26,891 nucleotides of DNA from a virus. The notes under the pieces were generated by a model, which worked only from the letters and a program-made list of their open reading frames with translations, ran no database searches and was not told the DNA's origin. A program made the translations under genes and the position numbers. The stretch is from the IMG/VR virus record IMGVR_UViG_3300044940_000249, positions 1-26,891 of that record; one strand, written 5' to 3'. How positions within the stretch are numbered: the first letter of the stretch is position 1; each line of letters opens with the position of its first letter. Below, piece after piece: positions 1,975 to 23,466 of the stretch.

Positions 1975-3315
1975 CTAGCTGACCCGCCCCCACTCGTCGA
2001 CGTCGACTGTCGCTGCCGTCTTCGTCGACGGAGTCGGCGAGAACACGGGCCACTCCCACCAAGCGAAGTACCCGAGCGCGTCGACGCCATGATCGATGTT
2101 GCCTGACTTCTCGGGTTCGCCATTGGCGTCGAGGCCCTGCGTCTCGAGCGCACGAGTGAGCACCGGGCACGCCATGTCGTCGACGGTGATCCGCCTGTCG
2201 CGCAGCAACGTGTTGACCGTCACCACTCTGTCGACGACGCGCGGGTTGCGCGTGCCGCACTTGGGTTGATATCCCGCACGTATCAGCAGGTGGATGTCGC
2301 TCACCGACGACGTCGACGTGAGTCGACCACCGCTCGCGTCGACGTACGCTTTGATCTTCATGCGCCGCACGTCGTCGGAGGAGAACGCACGCCCACGCGT
2401 GCGCGTGAGATACGACGCAATCCATGACGTCACGCGCTCTGCGTGCTCGTCCGTCGTCGTGCCGCCCTCTTTGATGACCTCTCCGACGACGTGCGCACGC
2501 TTCGTCTCGTCGTCGACCTCGAGCACGAGCCAGTGCATGTAACGTACGTTGAAGTCGCACGCGATCGCGATGCGCCCCTTGCCGACCTTGACCGCCGGCG
2601 GTGACGCACAGTGGACTTCTCGACGGAATCGCTGATACACGCGCCCGCCTTCGGTCTGATACTCGCCACCCCAAATGTGACCATACTTCTCGGGCTCGAG
2701 TTCGAGGCACGTCTGGCGTTCTCGACGGAGCACGTCGGGGAGCCACGGGTTGTCGTCGGCGTTTGCCTCGACGACGATTGCGTCAGGTGGTGTGCGTCGA
2801 CGAAGAAACGCATCCACCGCGTCGTCTGGTCGACGAGGATTCCATGAAAACCAAAGCTCGCTGCCGGGCTTGCGGATCGTCGGACGGAGCAGGTCGAGCG
2901 ATCGCTGCGAGAGTGCTTGAGCCTCCTCGACCCACGCGCAGTCGTAGCCCTCGAGGGATTTGATGCTTTCGGCAGTGTGATTCTGCATGCCCTGGAAGAT
3001 CACGATGCCTCGTCCTCGACGAGACTTGATGACGGCCTCCTGCACCTCGAAGAGATGGCCAACGCCAAGCTCCTCGATCGTCTGCTCAACGAGGCGCTTG
3101 ACGGACTGTGCGAGGCTCTTTTGCACTTCTCGGATGCACACCGTCGAGCGGTCTGGATCGGCGACGTGCGACTCGACGAGGAGCGACGCGAAGAAGCGCG
3201 ACTTGCCGGAGCCTCGCCCTCCGTATGCGCCTTTGTATCTGGCCGGCTGCAAGAGCGGGCGGAACACGCGCGCCGTCGGGATGACGAGGTCCGTCACGGT
3301 GTACTCGCGTGTCAT
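1975..3315 (-). CDS. terL: Terminase large subunit (ATPase-nuclease)
   Basis: Motor of DNA packaging: ATP-driven translocation plus endonuclease cutting of concatemers. It is 446 residues long. Walker A is GGRGSGKS at 32-39, following an adenine-binding type KGAYGG. Walker B with the catalytic Glu is YDCAWVEEAQ at about 124-133, and a coupling-type motif (SWNP) is at 157-160. The C-terminal RNase H-like nuclease has candidate acidic residues D254 (IACDFN), D326 (AYVDASGG) and D408/D412 (IDHGVDALGYF). This order fits the PBSX/Terminase_3 family. The ATG at 3315 overlaps the stop of the small terminase gene (ATGA); an upstream in-frame extension exists but would lie inside terS. The portal gene follows after 24 bases. 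Confidence 0.95.
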   Translation of the reverse strand: MTREYTVTDLVIPTARVFRPLLQPARYKGAYGGRGSGKSRFFASLLVESHVADPDRSTVCIREVQKSLAQSVKRLVEQTIEELGVGHLFEVQEAVIKSRRGRGIVIFQGMQNHTAESIKSLEGYDCAWVEEAQALSQRSLDLLRPTIRKPGSELWFSWNPRRPDDAVDAFLRRRTPPDAIVVEANADDNPWLPDVLRRERQTCLELEPEKYGHIWGGEYQTEGGRVYQRFRREVHCASPPAVKVGKGRIAIACDFNVRYMHWLVLEVDDETKRAHVVGEVIKEGGTTTDEHAERVTSWIASYLTRTRGRAFSSDDVRRMKIKAYVDASGGRLTSTSSVSDIHLLIRAGYQPKCGTRNPRVVDRVVTVNTLLRDRRITVDDMACPVLTRALETQGLDANGEPEKSGNIDHGVDALGYFAWWEWPVFSPTPSTKTAATVDVDEWGRVS

Positions 3316-3707
3316 TCGCCGGTGTCGACGGGACCTGGGTCGACGATGCGGCGGATCACCTGACGCACGGCGAGTTCGCCATCGACTTCGATCGTCGCCG
3401 GCGCCTTGCCGTAGACCCTCTCGACGACGGCCTCGGCGGCCTGCCGTCGCTCCTTGCACGACGACTCGCGCGCCACCTGCTCGACGGCGGGGAGCACCGT
3501 CCCGTCGTCGCAGGCGACGACCTCGCCAGTCGCCTGCGCGAGCAGCACGCGCAGCGCGTCGGGGCCGCGCGCGCGAAACCAGTCCGGCAGCCGAGGACGG
3601 CCGGGGCCGCCGGGGTTGCCGACCTCAAAGGGCCGGCCAGGTGCGTTTGGGGCGCGTTTAGACGCGGCGAGGGCGCCCGCCATATCGTCGTCGGTCGGGG
3701 AGGTCAT
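3312..3707 (-). CDS. terS: Probable terminase small subunit
   Basis: 131 residues, immediately upstream of and overlapping the large terminase gene. The N-terminus carries GNPGGPGRPRLPDWF (about residues 30-44), a proline/glycine-rich motif often seen in DUF5681-type proteins beside terminases. The middle (about 75-100) contains a charged helix, SCKERRQAAEAVVERVYGKAP, whose KAP ending is frequent in small-terminase-like proteins. Inference: it recognises the packaging site and recruits the large subunit. It is the first gene of the leftward packaging operon. There is no ribosome binding site before the ATG at 3707, but a -10-like box lies 6 bases upstream, which suggests a leaderless transcript. 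A later ATG at 3683 is also possible and also lacks a ribosome site. Confidence 0.75.
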   Translation of the reverse strand: MTSPTDDDMAGALAASKRAPNAPGRPFEVGNPGGPGRPRLPDWFRARGPDALRVLLAQATGEVVACDDGTVLPAVEQVARESSCKERRQAAEAVVERVYGKAPATIEVDGELAVRQVIRRIVDPGPVDTGE

Positions 3708-4439: not shown

Positions 4440-4471
4440 AAGACCACCTTCTGGTGGTCTTTATCGTTTTT
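4440..4471 (+). terminator. Rho-independent terminator
   Basis: Perfect 9-base stem AAGACCACC (4440-4448) / GGTGGTCTT (4453-4461) with loop TTCT, followed by a T-rich tract (TTATCGTTTTT, broken by ATCG). It is the only hairpin in the window with a proper U-tract and would end the short rightward HTH transcript. Confidence 0.85.
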
Positions 4472-4481
4472 AAAAAACACC

Positions 4482-4623
4482 TATCCTAGGATATTGACAT
4501 ATCCTTAATACTTCCTTCCTTCCCTCAACACACACTCAAAAAATTGAGTGTGTATACCCCCTGGCGGGAAGGAAGTATCTTCAGAACGGGGGTTCTATTT
4601 CTGCCATCCCGGAGGGATGGCAG
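4482..4623. repeat. AT-rich block with nested inverted repeats (candidate origin or regulatory/terminator region)
   Basis: This gap between convergent transcripts is far more AT-rich than its surroundings. Seen: the palindrome TATCCTAGGATA (4482-4493); overlapping it GGATAT/ATATCC (4489-4494 / 4499-4504); a 12-base arm pair ATACTTCCTTCC (4508-4519) / GGAAGGAAGTAT (4567-4578) enclosing a 10-base hairpin ACACACTCAA (4530-4539) / TTGAGTGTGT (4544-4553) with AAAA loop; AGAAC/GTTCT (4583-4596); and CTGCCATCCC (4601-4610) / GGGATGGCAG (4614-4623). The last hairpin lies 15 bases beyond the primase stop and may end that operon. The nested AT-rich pair resembles structured replication origins. Positions 4098-4439 before it hold only the broken frame described above. 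Confidence 0.6.
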
Positions 4624-4638
4624 CACCATCCTATCACG

Positions 4639-6888
4639 TCACCTGAGCAGCCGCAAGGCGATCGCCTGCCGTCCGCCTGTGACGACACGTCGCACGTCGA
4701 GGCGCTCTTCCTCACGCAATCTGTCAAGCACGTCGTCGAGGGCGCGCGCATCGAGGCGTCGACAAGCGCGAAGGACCGCCGAACGGGTGACCCACCCTTC
4801 TTCGTCGGCGAGGCGCATGATTGCCTCCTCGACGTAGGCGATCCGCCCTGCCACGTCGTCCCACGACGGAGAGCGGTGGTCACGCAGCGACCTGGCGATC
4901 GTCCACGTCGATGCCTCGACAACGCGGATGGCGCACCGAGCAACCTGCTCGTCGACGACGGGCCACGCTGGCCACTGGCACCGCAAGACCGCCAGAGCAA
5001 GCGCAACGCGTGTCGCTTGCTCGGCGCACCGTCCGAGCAGCGCCGCCGGGACGTCACCGTCTTGTGGCGCCCGTCGTCTATCGTCGCAGTGCTCGGCGTA
5101 GGCAGCGAGCAGCTCCGCACCGCCACCGTCCTCGACGTCGTCGGCACGGTACATCCGCAATGGCGCTCCAGTGCTCGCGTCGCCTTGCTCGGGGTTGCTC
5201 CGGTGCCAAGCCTCGTGCGCCTCTTTGCACGCGGTCACCAGCTCGGCGACGCCTCGTGGGATCGTCGTCGAGCCCGGTGCCGCGCGTTGTCTCGACGGCA
5301 GCACTGACAGACTCTCGCACCACAGGTGACGGCCGAGGAACCCGTCATCGATTGACAGTTGCCCGACGGCATCGTGCAGGGCCGACGGTGTCGACGAGCC
5401 GTATATCGATAGAGACGGCGCCATGATCACGCGGTCTTTGCCTCCTCGCGCTGCCGACGTCGCAGCGACGTATGCACCGGTCCCGACCGTGGCGAGCGTC
5501 AGCAGCAACGCGCGCATGTCGCGTTGATGTCCTGACCTCGCGTCGAAGAGTGCCTTCAGGCGCGGGCCATACTCGTCGAGGACGAGGAGCAGTCCGGTCC
5601 CGTAGTTGGTCGCCTCCTCGATGCGCGCGATCGTCGACACCGTCGAGGACAGATCGTTGGCGCCGATCGCACCGGGCCATAGCTCGCGCATCACCTGCGC
5701 GAGCGCGCTTTGCGGTCGTCCTTTGCCGCTCGCGGTCGGTGCGACGGCACACACGATCTGTGACGATGTGAGGCGCTCATACGTCCACCGTCGCGCTGCG
5801 AGGATCGAGCCGAGCGCCACGGTCGCGCCGACGGTGAGACCCGGCTGAGGATAGTCGGCGCCGGCCAACACCCACGACGCGAAAGCGTCGCAGAGGCCGC
5901 CAAGCGCGCGCAGCTCGTCGAGGAGGTCCCACTGTGCTTGGTCGTCCGGCTCGGGGAGCCGGACGAACTGGCGCGCTTTCGCTGCGTCCTCGTCGACGGT
6001 GAGCACCTCGTCTGCCTCTTGTCCTGTTAGCGTCACGCCATGCAGCGGGTCGTCGTACCGCGTGACGAGCAGGTGCCCCGTGGCGTACCCCTTCGGGTCC
6101 GGCGTCGTCGCCGCCTCCTTCGCCTTGTGAGCGAGTTCGCGCTCGGACCACGGCGGCTCGCAGCGCGCGTTGTATTCGCGCAGGACCTCGAGCGTCTCTT
6201 CCTCCGTCAGCGCGAACCCGCCCACACATGCACGTGCGACACGCATTGTCGCTGCGTGCCCTCCTGCTCCCGAGATCGCGGGCGGCATCTTGGCCACGTA
6301 CGCACGCGCGCGTTCGATGCGTCGTGCCGTGTCGACGACGACAGACGGCAACACCTGCTGAGGCGTCGCACGCGCGCGCTTGTACGCGCGCATCGCTTCG
6401 ACGATCCACGTCGGGATCGGTGCTGGCTCGACGTCGCATACGATCTCGTACGACCCGCCAGCGGTGACGGACCCCGGCGCCACGACGTATCCGCCGATGC
6501 CTCTCGTGTCGACGTCATCGTACCCAAGGCAGCTCTTCGCCTTGGCCGTGTTGCGCAGCACGTCGTCATCGGACGTGTCCTCTGGCATCGCGTAGTAGTA
6601 GTGGTACCCGCCTCGTGGTGTGCGCACGACCAGCGTTGGATCGAGGCGCTCATGGATCGGATGTGACGGGTCACTGTTGTCTACGTCGACGACGAAGACA
6701 CCCGACGCACGACCCGTCGCAACGCCAACGGAGCACGTCGGATACGGCGCGAAGAGCGCTCTCACCTTGTCTGGATCGCTCGTTGCCTTTGCGTCCCATG
6801 CATCGACGATGGGGCGCTTCTGCCGCCCAACGGGGAAGACGGCCCACCCACGAGCTGCGAGTGACAGGGCAAGATCAGTGCTCCTCAT
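4639..6888 (-). CDS. PrimPol-type primase fused to a P-loop ATPase/helicase domain
   Basis: 749 residues. Residues 1-165 form a bifunctional primase/polymerase (archaeo-eukaryotic PrimPol) domain: WAVFPVGRQKRP at the start, the metal pair VVDVD (D68, D70), TPRGGYHYYY with catalytic-type H96, and DTRGIGGYVVAPGS with D127. Residues about 190-260 look like a primase C-terminal helical linker (GGHAATMRVA, then LREYNARCEPPWSERELAHKA). Residues about 320-640 form a DUF3987-like ATPase with Walker A APTASGKG (383-390) and Walker B LLLVLDEY (433-440). The C-terminus (about 675-749) looks like a winged helix. Inference: it primes replication and drives unwinding as a single protein. ATG 6888 has GAGGAA 6 bases upstream. 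It follows the helicase gene after a 33-base gap. No separate replicative polymerase is seen, so the host enzyme or the PrimPol itself must serve. Confidence 0.88.
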   Translation of the reverse strand: MRSTDLALSLAARGWAVFPVGRQKRPIVDAWDAKATSDPDKVRALFAPYPTCSVGVATGRASGVFVVDVDNSDPSHPIHERLDPTLVVRTPRGGYHYYYAMPEDTSDDDVLRNTAKAKSCLGYDDVDTRGIGGYVVAPGSVTAGGSYEIVCDVEPAPIPTWIVEAMRAYKRARATPQQVLPSVVVDTARRIERARAYVAKMPPAISGAGGHAATMRVARACVGGFALTEEETLEVLREYNARCEPPWSERELAHKAKEAATTPDPKGYATGHLLVTRYDDPLHGVTLTGQEADEVLTVDEDAAKARQFVRLPEPDDQAQWDLLDELRALGGLCDAFASWVLAGADYPQPGLTVGATVALGSILAARRWTYERLTSSQIVCAVAPTASGKGRPQSALAQVMRELWPGAIGANDLSSTVSTIARIEEATNYGTGLLLVLDEYGPRLKALFDARSGHQRDMRALLLTLATVGTGAYVAATSAARGGKDRVIMAPSLSIYGSSTPSALHDAVGQLSIDDGFLGRHLWCESLSVLPSRQRAAPGSTTIPRGVAELVTACKEAHEAWHRSNPEQGDASTGAPLRMYRADDVEDGGGAELLAAYAEHCDDRRRAPQDGDVPAALLGRCAEQATRVALALAVLRCQWPAWPVVDEQVARCAIRVVEASTWTIARSLRDHRSPSWDDVAGRIAYVEEAIMRLADEEGWVTRSAVLRACRRLDARALDDVLDRLREEERLDVRRVVTGGRQAIALRLLR

Positions 6889-9428: not shown

Positions 9429-9510
9429 CGATCGCCCGCCGGAGCGCATCCGGCCCAGCCCTGCGCGGGGGATGGGCGCCCGCTTCACCACACACACACA
9501 GGACAGCAAC

Positions 9511-15271: not shown

Positions 15272-15830
15272 CTGGAGGCGCTACCTCCGCTGCGACGAGT
15301 GCGGCGCCGAGGCGCGACGGTGCTGTCGTGACGACGACGACAGGCCCGCCAGTGCGCCGTGCGCCGGGCGGCAACTCAGGTCGGCGACACGTCCGGTGAC
15401 CGTCACCGTCGACAACGTGGGGCGGCCTCGACGACGAAAGCGTGGCGTGCCCGCAGAGCCCACCTACTGGCCCTGCCAGCACTGTGGTCAGCCTGCGCGG
15501 GTGATCGGGGCGGCGTGGGTGTGCGGCGAGGCGTGGTGCCTCGCGCCGGCGTGTCGTGCTGCGCGTGACGAGCGGTACCGCGCACGACGACGCGAGAGGG
15601 AGCGCGCGGCCAGCGCCGCACGCCCGCTCGTCGAGGTGCGGTGCTACTGGTGCGACTGCCTGATCCGGCTCGCCACGGAGCCACCCCGGCGCCGATCGTG
15701 GTGTGACGACCCGGCGTGCCGCCGCGCTGCACGGCGGATCGGGCGATCTCTCGGATCACCGGATCCGGCCCAGAGATCACCGGATCCGGTGATCCGATCA
15801 CCGCAGAGATCACCGGATCCGCGGATCTGA
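15264..15830 (+). CDS. Multi-zinc-finger protein with a repeat-derived C-terminus
   Basis: 188 residues from a GTG at 15264 overlapping the methyltransferase stop; CTGGAGC precedes it. Three cysteine clusters are visible: CDECG...CC (residues 10-21), CQHCG...CLAPAC (about 71-98) and CYWCDC...CDDPAC (about 127-151). The last two clusters are followed by RAARDERY and RRAARR, a repeated finger-plus-basic-helix unit. The last 25 residues repeat SPDP/RSP (SPDPAQRSPDPVIRSP) because the gene's end lies inside the GATC array. Inference: a nucleic-acid-binding protein, perhaps a partner of the adjacent methyltransferase. The array may have grown into the coding region. Confidence 0.65.
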   Translation: MVDWRRYLRCDECGAEARRCCRDDDDRPASAPCAGRQLRSATRPVTVTVDNVGRPRRRKRGVPAEPTYWPCQHCGQPARVIGAAWVCGEAWCLAPACRAARDERYRARRRERERAASAARPLVEVRCYWCDCLIRLATEPPRRRSWCDDPACRRAARRIGRSLGSPDPAQRSPDPVIRSPQRSPDPRI

Positions 15831-15844
15831 TCCGCCCACGGATC
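15737..15844. repeat. GATC-dense repeat array with CCGGATCC units
   Basis: 13 GATC sites lie within 108 bases, including several GGATCC and two or three copies of a GATCACCGGATCC unit, some inverted (CCGGATCCGG is palindromic). The array covers the end of the zinc-finger gene and ends about 60 bases before the strongest promoter in the window. Chance spacing of a 4-base site would be about one in 256 bases. Confidence 0.85.
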
Positions 15845-15905
15845 CGCAAAAAACGGCTTTGCAACGCCACCGGAGAAAAAAACGACAGAGCAACAAACAC
15901 AGTGC

Positions 15906-15934
15906 TTGACGCGCCGGCAAGCGGCGCGTATAGT
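15906..15934 (+). promoter_or_regulatory. Strong sigma70-type promoter with an operator-like inverted repeat
   Basis: TTGACG (15906-15911), 17 bases, TATAGT (15929-15934): five of six consensus bases in each box. The spacer holds a perfect 7-base inverted repeat CGCGCCG-GCAAG-CGGCGCG (15910-15928), well placed for a repressor. A-rich runs at 15847-15892 may act as an upstream element. It drives the small-gene cassette region. Confidence 0.82.
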
Positions 15935-15978
15935 GGTCTCACGAGGCGCACGGAGCGCCCCGAAAAGGAGAGAGAGAG

Positions 15979-16185
15979 ATGAAGACCACCCGCACCACCA
16001 CCCGCACCACCGCCCGCACCGCCACCGCCCGCACCGTCATCGTCCGCGTCTCCCCCATCGGGATCAACCACGGCTACTGGGCTGACATCGTCTCGCGCAA
16101 CGGGCGGGTCATCCGCGAGGTCGGCTGCTACGCCACCCGCGACGGTGCCGAGCGCGCTGGCCTCGATCTCGTCGCCCGTATCTGA
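15979..16185 (+). CDS. Small basic protein with Thr/Arg-rich leader
   Basis: 68 residues with an excellent AAAAGGAGAGAGAGAG before the ATG, first gene behind the strong promoter and so probably well expressed. Residues 2-19 are almost only Thr, Arg and Ala, encoded by ACC/CGC repeats. The rest is a small beta-alpha fold (HGYWADIVSRNGRVIREVGC, then YATRDGAERAGLDLVA) that resembles the DUF1508-type strand-turn-strand-helix unit. Function unknown; the basic leader suggests nucleic acid contact. A GC-rich hairpin follows 10 bases after the stop. Confidence 0.7.
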   Translation: MKTTRTTTRTTARTATARTVIVRVSPIGINHGYWADIVSRNGRVIREVGCYATRDGAERAGLDLVARI

Positions 16186-16195
16186 CCTACCCTTC

Positions 16196-16222
16196 GCACG
16201 GGGCCCGCACGGGGCCCCGTGC
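16196..16222 (+). terminator. GC-rich hairpin after the first cassette gene
   Basis: 11-base stem GCACGGGGCCC (16196-16206) / GGGCCCCGTGC (16212-16222), loop GCACG. There is no U-tract, so it is a partial terminator, attenuator or mRNA-stabilising end rather than a classic terminator. Its core CACGGGGCC recurs after two other cassette genes. Confidence 0.6.
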
Positions 16223-16234
16223 GTCCCATCCAAT

Positions 16235-16261
16235 CACCACCACCACCACCACCACCACCAC
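16235..16261 (+). repeat. (CAC)9 microsatellite in a gene leader
   Basis: Nine perfect CAC units between the first cassette hairpin and the ribosome site of the HTH gene at 16287. Such tracts can change length by slippage, here altering leader length rather than a reading frame. Related ACC-rich codons encode the Thr runs of both flanking genes. Confidence 0.8.
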
Positions 16262-16286
16262 CCCACTCACCCACCAGGAGCACGCC

Positions 16287-16544
16287 ATGACCACCACGAC
16301 CACCACCGACACCGCCCGCCTCGCCCGCCTCGCCGAAGAGGCCATCGCCGCCGGCGACCGGGTGGGTGCCTACGTCGCCAGCTACGCCGCCGGCGACACC
16401 TGCGCCGAGATCGCCGATCGCTACGGGGTCGCCCGCTCGGAGGTCGCTACCTCGCTCCGTCGCGCGCTCGGCAGCCTGTCCCGCCGCGCGGCCCGCCGGT
16501 GGGCCAATGGCTGGCTCCGCGCCGTCGAGGCAGCCGCCGAGTGA
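16287..16544 (+). CDS. Small HTH protein (sigma region 4-like helix)
   Basis: 85 residues. It begins with a Thr run (MTTTTTTD), then a helix (LARLAEEAIAAGDRVGAYVA), and residues 36-60 form a HTH: GDTCAEIADRYGVARSEVAT followed by SLRRALGSL. The phrase T-C-A-E-I-A-D-R-Y-G-V resembles recognition helices of sigma-70 region 4 and resolvases. Inference: a DNA-binding regulator. AGGAGCACGCC precedes the ATG. It is flanked by hairpins on both sides and so behaves as an insulated one-gene cassette. Confidence 0.72.
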   Translation: MTTTTTTDTARLARLAEEAIAAGDRVGAYVASYAAGDTCAEIADRYGVARSEVATSLRRALGSLSRRAARRWANGWLRAVEAAAE

Positions 16545-16554
16545 CCCACCGCAC

Positions 16555-16578
16555 GCACGGGGCCGCACGGCCCCGTGC
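16555..16578 (+). terminator. GC-rich hairpin after the HTH cassette gene
   Basis: 11-base stem GCACGGGGCCG (16555-16565) / CGGCCCCGTGC (16568-16578) with only CA in the loop. It has nearly the same sequence as the hairpin at 16196. No U-tract follows; the next ribosome site (AAGGAGC) starts 5 bases later. Confidence 0.6.
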
Positions 16579-16593
16579 GAGACAAGGAGCAAA

Positions 16594-16746
16594 ATGACGA
16601 CAGGTGACGGTATCGGCGGCGGCTTCGGCGGCGGCTACGGCGGCGACGGCGGCTGCGGCTACGGCGACTACGGTGACGGCGCCGGCGGCGGCCACGGTGA
16701 CGGTCGCGGCTACGGCGGCGGTGCCGGACACGGCGACGACTACTGA
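16594..16746 (+). CDS. Glycine-rich low-complexity protein 1 (50 aa)
   Basis: 50 residues, more than half Gly, with Asp, Tyr and a single Cys (GGGFGGGYGGDGGCGYGDYG). AAGGAGC precedes the ATG by 3 bases, so translation is likely. Gly-Asp-Gly-Tyr repeats lack a hydrophobic core and should be disordered or adopt polyglycine-type structure. The paralogues at 17239 and 17531 share composition and the starting MTT. No homologous family is recognised; possible roles include a virion-surface, Ca-binding or condensate-forming protein, none proven. Confidence 0.65.
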   Translation: MTTGDGIGGGFGGGYGGDGGCGYGDYGDGAGGGHGDGRGYGGGAGHGDDY

Positions 16747-16751
16747 CCTCC

Positions 16752-16778
16752 GCCGCACGCGCGTCGTGCGCGTGCGGC
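16752..16778 (+). terminator. GC-rich hairpin after glycine-rich gene 1
   Basis: 11-base stem GCCGCACGCGC (16752-16762) / GCGCGTGCGGC (16768-16778), loop GTCGT, 5 bases after the stop. Its sequence differs from the other cassette hairpins but its placement is the same. There is no U-tract. Confidence 0.55.
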
Positions 16779-16844
16779 ACCACCGAGCGCGCCCGTCGGG
16801 GCCGGGCGATGTCTCGTTCCTCACGCCCCAACAAGGAGACAACC

Positions 16845-17153
16845 ATGACCGAAAACACCCCCTCCCTCGTTATCGTCGCCGGCGACTGCGGCGTCTATGC
16901 TGGCTACGTCGCTGGCGGAGCGGCGAATTGCACGACGACGAGCGTGGCGCTGCATCGTGCACGCCACCTGAGACGCTATTACGTCGCCGGTCGGACCGGC
17001 GACGGCAGCGTGAGCGATCTCGCGGCGCGTGGGCTGGATCCGGCCAGCCCGTCGATCAGTGACGTCGTGCCAGGCGTCACGATGCTCCATGGCGTGCGTC
17101 GCGTGATGGACGTGGTCCCCGAGGTCGCGGCGTCGTTCGGCTGCGGCGAGTGA
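16845..17153 (+). CDS. Small phage protein resembling DUF6948-type proteins
   Basis: 102 residues; ACAAGGAGACAACC gives a perfect ribosome site for ATG 16845. The protein runs SLVIVAGDCGVYAGYVAGG, then VALHRARHLRRYYVAGRTGDG, LAARGLD and VPGVTMLHGVRRVMDVVPEV. A strand for an R-x-x-W/G-V-Y-V-G motif followed by an R-R-Y segment, a Gly-Leu turn and a final T-x-L-x-G-V recalls the small DUF6948-type proteins of phages and prophages, as I remember them. Function of that family is not known. Flanked by hairpins. Confidence 0.62.
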   Translation: MTENTPSLVIVAGDCGVYAGYVAGGAANCTTTSVALHRARHLRRYYVAGRTGDGSVSDLAARGLDPASPSISDVVPGVTMLHGVRRVMDVVPEVAASFGCGE

Positions 17154-17166
17154 CTTACACACACAC

Positions 17167-17201
17167 ACACACGGGGCCGGCCAAACGCCGGCCCCGTGTG
17201 T
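17167..17201 (+). terminator. Strong GC-rich hairpin, 15-base stem
   Basis: ACACACGGGGCCGGC (17167-17181) pairs perfectly with GCCGGCCCCGTGTGT (17187-17201), loop CAAAC, 13 bases after the preceding stop. A (AC)n run forms the base of the stem. It is the longest of the cassette hairpins and contains the shared CACGGGGCC core. Confidence 0.65.
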
Positions 17202-17238
17202 TCCCATGGTGAAAGAGGCGACTGACGACGGAGGTCAC

Positions 17239-17529
17239 ATGACGACGGTAGACTACGGCCACGGTGAGGGTACCGGCATCGGCGCCGGCGCCGGCTACGG
17301 CGGCGGCGACGGCTACGGATACGGGTACAGTATCGCCTTCACCGACGGTGACGGTGAAGGCGCCGGCGAGGGCGACGGCTTCGGCGGCGGCCTCGGCGAC
17401 GGCGACGGTCACGGCTACGGCGACGGCCTCGGCGGCGGCTGCGGCCTCGGCGCCGGCGAGGGCGCCGGCCTCGGCGACGGCGGCGGCTACGGTGAGGGCG
17501 ACGGCGCTGGCGACGGCAACGGAGGATGA
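17239..17529 (+). CDS. Glycine-rich low-complexity protein 2 (96 aa)
   Basis: 96 residues after ATG 17239 (GGAGGTCAC upstream; an earlier ATG at 17206 is less favoured). After MTTVDYGHGEG the protein is Gly at nearly every second position, alternating with Asp, Glu, Ala, Tyr, Phe and Leu (GEGDGFGGGLGDGDGHGYGD). It contains a 62-base DNA segment repeated exactly in the next gene. Paralogue of the proteins encoded at 16594 and 17531. Long open frames on other strands are composition artefacts of GGC repeats; only this frame has a ribosome site. Confidence 0.7.
   Translation: MTTVDYGHGEGTGIGAGAGYGGGDGYGYGYSIAFTDGDGEGAGEGDGFGGGLGDGDGHGYGDGLGGGCGLGAGEGAGLGDGGGYGEGDGAGDGNGG
17431..17492 (+). repeat. 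62-base direct repeat, copy 1 (copy 2 at 17678-17739)
   Basis: The two copies are identical over 62 bases at an offset of 247 and encode the same segment (CGLGAGEGAGLGDGGG) in glycine-rich proteins 2 and 3. Base identity, not just protein similarity, suggests recent duplication or ongoing recombination. Confidence 0.85.
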
Positions 17530-17530
17530 C

Positions 17531-17812
17531 ATGACGACTGGCTACGGCTACGGCTTCGGCGCCGGCTTCGGCGACGGTGACGGCCGTGGCGACGGCGGCG
17601 GCAACGGCTACGGCCATGGCGAAGGCGCCGGCTGCGGCGCCGGCGACGGCGAGGGTGGCGGCGAGGGTGGCGGCGACGGCGGCGGCTGCGGCCTCGGCGC
17701 CGGCGAGGGCGCCGGCCTCGGCGACGGCGGCGGCTACGGCTACGGCTACGGCTGCGGCGACGGCGAAGGCAGCGGCGTCGGCTTCGGCTTCGGTGACGGC
17801 GGCGGAGGATGA
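17531..17812 (+). CDS. Glycine-rich low-complexity protein 3 (93 aa)
   Basis: 93 residues; GGAGGATGAC at the end of the preceding gene provides the ribosome site, one base separates the genes. Sequence starts MTTGYGYGFGAGFGDGDGRG and ends GSGVGFGFGDGGGG, with GYGYGYGCGDGEG in between. Copy 2 of the 62-base repeat lies inside (17678-17739). Enriched in Gly, Asp, Tyr and Phe with three Cys, so sticky aromatic spacers on a flexible backbone. Function unknown; probably works with the other two glycine-rich proteins. Confidence 0.7.
   Translation: MTTGYGYGFGAGFGDGDGRGDGGGNGYGHGEGAGCGAGDGEGGGEGGGDGGGCGLGAGEGAGLGDGGGYGYGYGCGDGEGSGVGFGFGDGGGG
17678..17739 (+). repeat. 62-base direct repeat, copy 2
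   Basis: Exact second copy of 17431-17492; see that entry. Flanking bases differ immediately outside the match. Confidence 0.85.
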
Positions 17813-17813
17813 C

Positions 17814-17912
17814 ATGCTCTGCGCGACTGTTCGGCGCGCCATCGTGCGCGAGGCACGACGACGAGGATTGCCCGTGTGGGCGTTTCTCTTGGCACTTGAG
17901 GTGATGCGATGA
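17814..17912 (+). CDS. Very small cationic helical protein (32 aa)
   Basis: 32 residues from ATG 17814, placed after GGAGGATGAC, the same ribosome site context as the previous gene. Its stop overlaps the next ATG (ATGA). The sequence LCATVRRAIVREARRRGLPV then WAFLLALEVMR is a basic helix followed by a short hydrophobic one. It may be a membrane-active or translationally coupling peptide. The signals on both sides make it plausible despite its length. Confidence 0.5.
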   Translation: MLCATVRRAIVREARRRGLPVWAFLLALEVMR

Positions 17913-18121
17913 CGACGAGAAAAAACCAGCCACGACATGATCTGCTGCTGCGACTGACGCAGGACGAGCGTCAGGCGCTCGACGCGGCGGCAGCCAAAGC
18001 CGGTGTGCCGACGTCGACGTGGGTACGCGCCGTAGCACTGCGCACCGCTGGCGCACCGCCGCACGTCGACGGACGCGTGCGCAAGACCGTGGTCCTCGAC
18101 GAGGAGGTGGCAGGTGCGTGA
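17909..18121 (+). CDS. Ribbon-helix-helix/MobC-like small protein
   Basis: 70 residues. DLLLRLTQDERQALDAAAAK, then AGVPTSTWVRAVALRTAG, is a strand-helix-helix pattern typical of Arc/CopG or MobC-like proteins, in which the strand (LLLRLT) enters the DNA groove and S-T-W-V-R starts the second helix. The C-terminus is a short beta-like tail (GRVRKTVVLDEEV). Inference: a dimeric DNA-binding regulator. GAGGTGATGCG precedes the ATG. It overlaps the next gene by 8 bases. Confidence 0.7.
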   Translation: MTTRKNQPRHDLLLRLTQDERQALDAAAAKAGVPTSTWVRAVALRTAGAPPHVDGRVRKTVVLDEEVAGA

Positions 18122-18323
18122 CCCGGACCGCCACCTGCCCGACCCGGGGGACGACGACGATCCCACCGACGAGGAGATCGCAGCGGCGATCGATCGTCTC
18201 GACGCGGTGGCCCTGCTGACACGCCTGTGTCACGAGGACCCGCAGCACTGGCTCGTCGAGGAGATCTTCGACGAGGTCGAGCGCGTGCGCTCGTGCACGT
18301 TCGCACGCGAACACGAACGCTAG
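18114..18323 (+). CDS. Acidic small hypothetical protein
   Basis: 69 residues from GTG 18114, preceded by GAGGAGGTGGCAG inside the upstream gene. Acidic start (DPGDDDDPTDEEIAAAIDRLDA) followed by helices (ALLTRLCHEDPQHWLVEEIF). No known motif. Its TAG stop shares the palindrome CTAG (18320-18323) with the stop of the convergent peptidase gene, so the two transcription units meet with no intergenic base. Confidence 0.62.
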   Translation: MRDPDRHLPDPGDDDDPTDEEIAAAIDRLDAVALLTRLCHEDPQHWLVEEIFDEVERVRSCTFAREHER

Positions 18324-18901
18324 TCGACGACGACACCGATCGCGCGCACCACCTGATATTGGCGCACGCGACGGCCCCAAGTGACAGGCCCCGCCAGCGT
18401 GGACAGGAGCAGCCGCTCTGTCCTCGCCGTGGCGGGGTCGCCGATCAGTAGATCGGCGTCGTCGACGGCGAAGGCGCAAGCCCAGTGCTCGGCAAGCGGG
18501 TCGCCACCAGGTTGGTCGTGGTCGTAATCGACGCCGACGAGACAGACGCCGCCGGCGCGGATCGTGTCCGCGACGAACGATCGCAGGCGCTCGACGGGCG
18601 CTACACGCCCAGCTCCGTCGACGTCGTCGGTGACGCGCACGCCTCGTTGCGCGCGCACCAGCTCAGGTATCACGCACGCCGACGACCCATCGGCCCACAC
18701 ACCCTGTCTCGCGAGGCCAGCTCGCTGCACGTCGAGGGGCGTCACGCCGCCACGCGCGCCGAGATATCGGATCGCCATCGTGGTGCTGACGACGACGCAG
18801 CCAGCGGTGGCGAACGTCGACGAGCCACGACCGACCGTGCGCGACCCGTGCGGTGGCGCGCCTTGCCAGATCACCGGCTGCGCCGCGCGACCGTACCTCA
18901 C
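18320..18901 (-). CDS. C39/papain-like cysteine peptidase, probable endolysin
   Basis: 193 residues from a GTG at 18901 overlapping the preceding small gene (GTGA). The catalytic Cys lies in TAGCVVVSTTMAIRYLG (C35), the G-C-x-x-x-S/A-x-x-M pattern of C39-like peptidases. His and Asp follow as EHWACAFAV (H139) and LLIGDPAT (D155). This spacing and order fit peptidase_C39_2 type phage lysins that cut peptide cross-links of the cell wall. No signal peptide, so it would need the membrane proteins encoded upstream for release. Last gene of the long leftward late operon. A virion-associated or defence role cannot be excluded. Confidence 0.72.
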   Translation of the reverse strand: MRYGRAAQPVIWQGAPPHGSRTVGRGSSTFATAGCVVVSTTMAIRYLGARGGVTPLDVQRAGLARQGVWADGSSACVIPELVRAQRGVRVTDDVDGAGRVAPVERLRSFVADTIRAGGVCLVGVDYDHDQPGGDPLAEHWACAFAVDDADLLIGDPATARTERLLLSTLAGPVTWGRRVRQYQVVRAIGVVVD

Positions 18902-22417: not shown

Positions 22418-22443
22418 AGACGCCTCGTGGAAGAGGGGATGAC

Positions 22444-22472
22444 GACGAGGGGGCCGGGATGGCCCCCTCGTC
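22444..22472 (-). terminator. Hairpin between the capsid gene and downstream genes
   Basis: Perfect 12-base stem GACGAGGGGGCC (22444-22455) / GGCCCCCTCGTC (22461-22472), 5-base loop, 4 bases beyond the capsid stop. Without a U-tract it may be a partial terminator that keeps capsid mRNA abundant over the genes that follow. Confidence 0.65.
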
Positions 22473-22476
22473 GAAG

Positions 22477-23466
22477 TCAAGCCGCGTAGATGAATCGGCA
22501 ACCGTGCTCGTCGGTGTGCTCGGCGACGGCCCAGCACCACCGACCGACGGCGAGCAGCGTGTCGTCGACGAGGTCGTACTGGAAACCAAGCGACGGCTCG
22601 TACCGCTCGCACAACTCGGCGAAGCCACGCACGCTGCCGGGCGTGCCCGTCTCGCCACGGCCGGCGACGATCAACGCAGCGACGCGATCGACGCCGCCGT
22701 TCGCCGTCGGCATGATCGCCTTGTTCGCCGCGAAGATCGGGATGCCGGCGAACGAGCCGCGATAGCCATTGCGGCTCACGTCGGGACGGTGGCCGAAGAA
22801 GCTCACGTCACCAGCACCGTTGCCGCTGAAGATCGTCGACAGAGCTGCACCAGAGCCCGACGCAGCGAGCGCACGCAGATCGGACACGCCCTTCTCCTCG
22901 AGGACGAACGCGAGGTCCTCCGACGACGGATTGTTGTCGAGGACCTTCATGATCCCATTGAGGAGCGTCGCGAACGACAGCGGCGTGTTCGTGACGCCGG
23001 CCGACTCGGAGAGGCCAGGGAAGAGCGCGAGCGCATCGGTCTCGGCACGCAGGTAGTGAGCCTCGAGGATCTCGACCATCGCATCGCGAACGAGCGGCAA
23101 GACCGCAGCGTTACCGCTGTCGATCGCTGCGATCACGTCGGCGCGACGCGCACCGGGCAGCGCCAGCTCGATCGCGTCGCTGGTCAGCTGGATCCCCTGC
23201 ACCTTCGTCGTCGGCGTGATGGTGATGTTCGCCGCAACGCCCATCGCAGGCGCGTTGGTGAAGGCGGTGCCCTCGGTGTCGTCGACGGCGGCAGCGATTG
23301 CGGTTGCCTTGCGGATCTTGCGGTTCTTCGTGCTGCGACCGCTGATGTCGCTCATGTTGATCAGCTGCAAGAGCACGAGCTTGCCGCGCAGCGGAGCCAG
23401 CGCGATCTGGCTCATGACCTCGGTCATGAGCCAGTTCGCGACGGTGGTGGAAGACGTGAGAGCCAT
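22477..23466 (-). CDS. Major capsid protein (HK97-fold type)
   Basis: 329 residues. Predicted main shell subunit. It follows directly after a scaffold-like gene, 26 bases downstream, with GAGGTCAAC before ATG 23466. The first 60 residues are the N-arm (MALTSSTTVANWLMTEVMSQ ... RKIRKATAIAAAVDDTEGTA), then TITPTTKVQGIQLTSDAIEL, typical of the spine helix and beta strands of HK97-like shells (P22-coat-related families). The central A-domain contains FVLEEKGVSDLRALAAS and ends with FAGIPIFAANKAIMPT and LVDDTLLAVGRW, the P-domain-type strands. Sequence-level family assignment is by recollection; position and pattern support it strongly. Confidence 0.8.
   Translation of the reverse strand: MALTSSTTVANWLMTEVMSQIALAPLRGKLVLLQLINMSDISGRSTKNRKIRKATAIAAAVDDTEGTAFTNAPAMGVAANITITPTTKVQGIQLTSDAIELALPGARRADVIAAIDSGNAAVLPLVRDAMVEILEAHYLRAETDALALFPGLSESAGVTNTPLSFATLLNGIMKVLDNNPSSEDLAFVLEEKGVSDLRALAASGSGAALSTIFSGNGAGDVSFFGHRPDVSRNGYRGSFAGIPIFAANKAIMPTANGGVDRVAALIVAGRGETGTPGSVRGFAELCERYEPSLGFQYDLVDDTLLAVGRWCWAVAEHTDEHGCRFIYAA

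Follow-up and report, generated by a model that had tools for sequence, protein, structure and literature searches.

Terminators that lack a U-tract are already known from GC-rich bacteria and from the early region of actinophage phiC31, where Ingham, Hunter and Smith (1995) reportedly described U-less Rho-independent terminators. According to a cited title, the mycobacterial polymerase needs the U-tract, and real termination by U-less hairpins is said to be disputed. In T4-type phages, small early genes reportedly travel in mobile regulatory cassettes termed PeST (Arbiol 2010), and in cluster K mycobacteriophages the SAS/ESAS elements, short motifs together with inverted repeats, stand where genes meet outside the structural module. 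In S. clavuligerus, 353 of 535 highly structured transcript ends were without a U-rich tract (PMC8269248), and from the same study we took the U-lack criterion of a stable stem followed by no more than 2 U in 8 nt. In Streptomyces, terminators combine hairpins of high stability with 3-4 U in 10 nt (PMC12207403).

We analyzed IMGVR_UViG_3300044940_000249, an IMG/VR record of 26,891 bases that is classed as linear and is possibly a fragment; this entire stretch is referred to as the window. The record encodes a terminase, a prim-pol, a helicase, a Sak4-like protein, a PolB-type exonuclease and a DNA methyltransferase, and its promoter style and GC would fit an actinobacterial host. An early-type operon on the plus strand runs from Sak4 (~8.7 kb) to a Cys-rich ORF that ends at 15830. 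The original prediction held that genes on this strand overlap everywhere outside the block of interest; packing upstream was indeed tight, neighboring genes overlapping or lying 0-17 nt apart, except for 83 nt between Sak4 and the next gene. A 148-nt gap downstream of the Cys-rich ORF holds the only plus-strand promoter-like site within 13-21 kb, and behind it, at the positions that had been predicted, lie four small genes with AAGGAG or AGGAG ribosome sites (the first four ORFs in Table 1). These genes are followed by gaps of 101, 49, 98 and 85 nt, with one perfect hairpin per gap (h1-h4). The predicted change of spacing style was confirmed for these four genes; what had been missed is that an overlapping or packed style resumes at 17239-18323, where five small genes follow without such hairpins. 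The unit thus comprises nine genes up to 18323, with hairpins limited to the first four. Our data support the claim of a separate transcription unit behind a strong promoter, and the block would represent a second unit of early transcription, made up of small accessory genes. No tRNA was found in a tRNA search, an Rfam search gave no credible match, and phage records searched at the DNA level with the 14.5-18.9 kb region returned no match.

Table 1. Features of the unit and of related sites, in window coordinates unless a related viral contig (L number) is named.
Feature	Position	Strand	Remarks
Promoter TTGACG-N17-TATAGT	15906-15934	+	10/12 matches
8-bp dyad ACGCGCC..GGCGCGT in promoter spacer	15909-15929		Possible operator (putative function)
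5' leader hairpin, loop 5 nt	15942-15962	+	Immediately 3' of promoter; covariation
P1, 68 aa, Thr/Arg-rich N-terminus	15979-16185	+	Family heads same promoter in L003, L011
h1, perfect, 12 bp, loop 5	16195-16223	+	9 nt past stop; CACGGGGCC core
HTH-like small protein, 85 aa	16287-16544	+	Below Pfam cut-offs
h2, perfect, 11 bp, loop 4	16554-16579	+	9 nt past stop, 14 nt before next start; homologous to h1
Gly-X dipeptide-repeat protein, 50 aa	16594-16746	+	
h3, perfect, 11 bp, loop 5	16752-16778	+	5 nt past stop; unrelated sequence
DUF6948 protein, 102 aa	16845-17153	+	PF22253, 32.4 bits, cut-off 27; relatives 65-70% identical
h4, perfect, 15 bp, loop 5	17167-17201	+	13 nt past stop, between DUF6948 and Gly-X genes; CACGGGGCC core
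Gly-X repeat protein, 96 aa	17239-17529	+	3' of DUF6948, as in relatives
Second Gly-X repeat protein, 93 aa	17531-17812	+	
Very small gene	17814-17912	+	By eye, resembles second early-operon gene of L003/L048 (MSWTTLRPALRRAIMREA...)
NikA-like protein, 70 aa	17909-18121	+	PF21983, 28.8 bits, cut-off 27; phrog_10190
Final small ORF of unit	18114-18323	+	Convergent with minus-strand gene 18320-18901
U-poor 13-bp hairpin	22443-22473	-	3' of minus-strand gene 22477-23466; orthologous sites in relatives U-tailed
DUF6948/Gly-X pair	16845-17529; L001 3356-3870; L002 about 6000-6503; L003 4890-5442; L005 about 5996-6455; L043 about 2995-3353		

The hairpins were, as predicted, GC-rich, perfect and free of a U-run; their stems measured 11-15 bp, and they far exceeded chance. 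Five perfect stems of at least 10 bp fell within 1.4 kb, the fifth inside the DUF6948 gene, compared with a mean of 0.04 under a first-order Markov null in which none of 200 simulations reached four. Folding z-scores on the plus strand were -4.3, -4.7, -2.4 and -5.1 for h1 to h4; in folding energy no shuffle matched h1, h2 or h4, whereas h3 was matched by 3 of 200. A core common to three hairpins had also been predicted, and CACGGGGCC occurred seven times in the contig (0.37 expected), always within h1, h2 or h4; these three were alike beyond shuffles, and h3 was not related to them. Elsewhere in the contig, comparable hairpins were found at 22443 (13 bp) and 23407 (12 bp). A hairpin-pattern search of viral contigs yielded only two unrelated contigs, in one of which the hairpin follows a gene that probably encodes a capsid protein and has a TTTT tail itself.

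All four hairpins begin 5-13 nt past a stop codon and lie 14-66 nt ahead of the next start; from their position at the stops they are therefore taken as gene-end elements. They share the GC-rich stem and short loop after a gene with canonical intrinsic terminators but lack the U-rich tract: the 8 nt past the stem hold 2, 0, 0 and 2 U, which by stem stability and U count would place h1-h4 within the I-shaped, U-lack class. Like the Streptomyces members of that class they combine very stable GC stems and short loops with few U past the stem, whereas here three of the four carry one duplicated core inside a single short operon. The phiC31 early region likewise has intergenic GC-rich hairpins without poly-U among small early genes; its terminators were assayed for termination, whereas h1-h4 are putative ones, and the search of phage records gave no DNA match to the region that holds them.

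The promoter at 15906 is homologous to sites at L001 2124, L002 4815 and L003 3568 and in L048 (GCTTGACA-N17-GTAGAGTG), and promoter and 5' leader together are homologous to those that head the early (Sak4) operon in L001-L003 and L048. Among five homologous leaders, three pairs of the leader stem had changed on both sides, and 91% of cells were paired versus 28-43% when the stem was slid. This small set of five supports, without proving, conservation of the leader structure across related phages; the mean folding z-score of the leaders was biased by an energy filter at collection, and covariation was used instead. In related contigs, GTGCTTGAC-N17/18-GTAGnnTG promoters with a hairpin at the leader start and a GGAG site stand ahead of a variety of small genes at several genome positions, although the strict set holds few promoters, some of them orthologous. 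The short covarying hairpin at the 5' end was seen at GTGCTTGAC promoters here and in the leaders of L001, L002, L003, L012 and L048. A different arrangement, a hairpin with a U-tract followed immediately by a GGAG site, was observed in the early operon at L011 4123, L015 3252, L024 3983 and L008 6065 and is absent here.

We also examined the genes of the unit in related phages. Relatives of the DUF6948 protein were present in viral contigs only, in L001-L005 and L043 (54%); none was found in phage records or in bacterial and archaeal genomes, so that this search pointed to no host genome. A model of the protein had low confidence (pLDDT 63), and its top Foldseek matches were mostly of the Sm/LSm fold, none with E < 0.05; a profile search of PDB sequences gave chance-level matches only. 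In all six relative records, two of which (L004 and L005) share one identical junction sequence, the DUF6948 stop codon and the start codon of a Gly-X repeat ORF overlap (GTGA, ATGA or TTGA); the L002 record stops inside the Gly-X gene. The X residue of this ORF varies freely. In L001 and L003, Sak4 and the next early gene flank the pair, and in L003 a P1 homolog stands directly 3' of the early promoter, with a gene like that at 17814 next to it. No relative of the HTH-like protein was found in viral contigs. P1, DUF6948, Gly-X and the 17814 gene are thus early-operon members in relatives, and here they lie behind the methyltransferase and Cys-rich genes. The interval from the methyltransferase to the 18320 gene spans 1.0-3.0 kb in 14 relative records, some of them near-identical, and contains no such promoter, Gly-X genes or series of U-less hairpins. 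The block is missing from this interval and its genes reside in the early operon of relatives; the arrangement is therefore a lineage-specific one of early-operon genes. A conserved non-coding GCGGGnGATnGGCGCCCGC was noted 5' of gene 9512 (9440-9500; L001 3900-3945; L003 5450-5515); the sequence is kept in relatives, although here its gap lacks the DUF6948/Gly-X pair.

The proposal that the small genes are individually exchangeable cassettes held in part. Gene content does change among relatives behind a recurrent promoter and leader, but the hairpins do not move with the genes: none of these intergenic hairpins was found in relatives bearing P1, DUF6948, Gly-X or 17814-like genes, DUF6948 and Gly-X overlap in the six records, and no related locus has the hairpin block. 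The original prediction had named related phages with the same genes and no hairpins as one finding that would count against it, and for the cassette idea this is largely what we observed, while the hairpins themselves remain significant. The block resembles T4-type PeST in its early promoter and in stem-loops around small exchangeable early genes; it differs in having a single promoter for the whole block, and genes do not swap together with a promoter and stem-loop, since the promoter and leader recur with different genes but the intergenic hairpins are absent from relatives that carry the genes.

We somewhat favor the reading that the block is an early unit of accessory genes that has been relocated, with putative I-shaped, probably leaky, terminators or 3' stabilizers at its gene ends. 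h1-h4 would then act at gene 3' ends as intrinsic terminators of the I-shaped type, in which the U-tract is short or missing. Each would have to be weak, because a series of four efficient ones would leave the distal genes silent. Most likely some polymerases read through them and the messages upstream are protected at their 3' ends, and output may thereby drop stepwise along the unit. The homologous h1, h2 and h4 probably arose by duplication of one element, and the insertion of h4 between genes that overlap in the six relative records would be a derived state. The earlier suggestion that the hairpins set mRNA stability or partial termination agrees with this to the extent that their placement points to gene-end elements of a terminator or 3'-stability type. 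Against termination, h2 and h3 have no U in the 10 nt past the stem, lower than even the Streptomyces range. The absence of a U-run in these two, the very stable stems and their placement directly past stops are also what would be expected if h1-h4 did not terminate and instead governed 3' stability or processing (as RNase barriers, REP-like), with a separate half-life for the message of each small gene. We consider this a less probable though appreciable alternative; what weighs against it is the site at 22443, whose orthologs in relatives are U-tailed terminators. At this site, 3' of the structural-type gene 22477-23466, L008, L010 and L013 have a hairpin with 5-7 U in 8 nt and this phage has 2 U; in L010 the U-tract is TTTTCTTTCT, compared with a 13-bp hairpin followed by TCATCCCCTC here. 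Given the U-tailed ortholog in these three relatives, the U-poor hairpin therefore occupies a terminator position in this lineage.

Two further readings place the function of the palindromes elsewhere. That they are copies of a leader hairpin with its ribosome site, associated with starts and acting on the downstream gene, appears improbable. The segment h2-SD-ATGACGAC does align to the L001 and L003 leaders with scores of 21 and 20, exceeding all 300 shuffles, but the hairpin part alone is marginal under a palindrome-preserving null (p 0.008-0.09, many tests), and h1, h3 and h4 are 37-66 nt from the next start. Cluster K SAS/ESAS would be the parallel; there the elements lie 5' of starts, whereas here the hairpins are 3' of stops, and the SAS motif is not at the hairpin sites. 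An SAS assignment was rejected, as the only GGGATAGGAGCCC-like matches were two with 2 mismatches, at 9469 and 12531. Homology of h1 and h2 to the leader hairpin, strong against dinucleotide shuffles but marginal against the palindrome-preserving null, is not claimed. It is very doubtful that the leader hairpin is a reusable RNA regulatory element copied to h1 and h2 and acted on by a phage factor, conceivably DUF6948 with its weak hint of an LSm-like fold. Equally unlikely in our view is that a repressor, perhaps the HTH-like protein, binds the palindromes as stoperator- or operator-like DNA sites: CACGGGGCC...GGCCCCGTG palindromes do occupy three intergenic gaps and an HTH-like gene lies within the unit, but CACGGGGCC has no copy near the promoter or elsewhere in the 26.9 kb, the promoter dyad has a different sequence, h3 differs and placement past the stops is fixed. 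A stoperator would be expected in many genome copies with one at the early promoter; with CACGGGGCC confined to h1, h2 and h4, this candidate was set aside.

The original description of the block as the best candidate for an undescribed module was too strong, as U-less terminators had precedents. The locus is most likely no new system but a neat instance of a hairpin type known from GC-rich bacteria and their phages. It adds a clear case of U-poor hairpins that putatively mark gene ends in a group of uncultured, GC-rich phages, and the U-tailed hairpin of relatives versus the U-poor one here offers natural ortholog pairs with which the disputed need for a U-tract can be tested. A promoter/leader unit that recurs ahead of changing sets of small genes also came to light, as did the conserved pairing of DUF6948 and Gly-X genes. 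Two other regions were noted in the window. Dense GGATC/GATC inverted repeats with arms of 18-21 bp fill 15740-15850, at the end of the Cys-rich ORF and just 5' of the promoter, and the gap beside the prim-pol gene (4440-4623) contains three hairpins along with a stretch rich in A+T that includes T6/A5.
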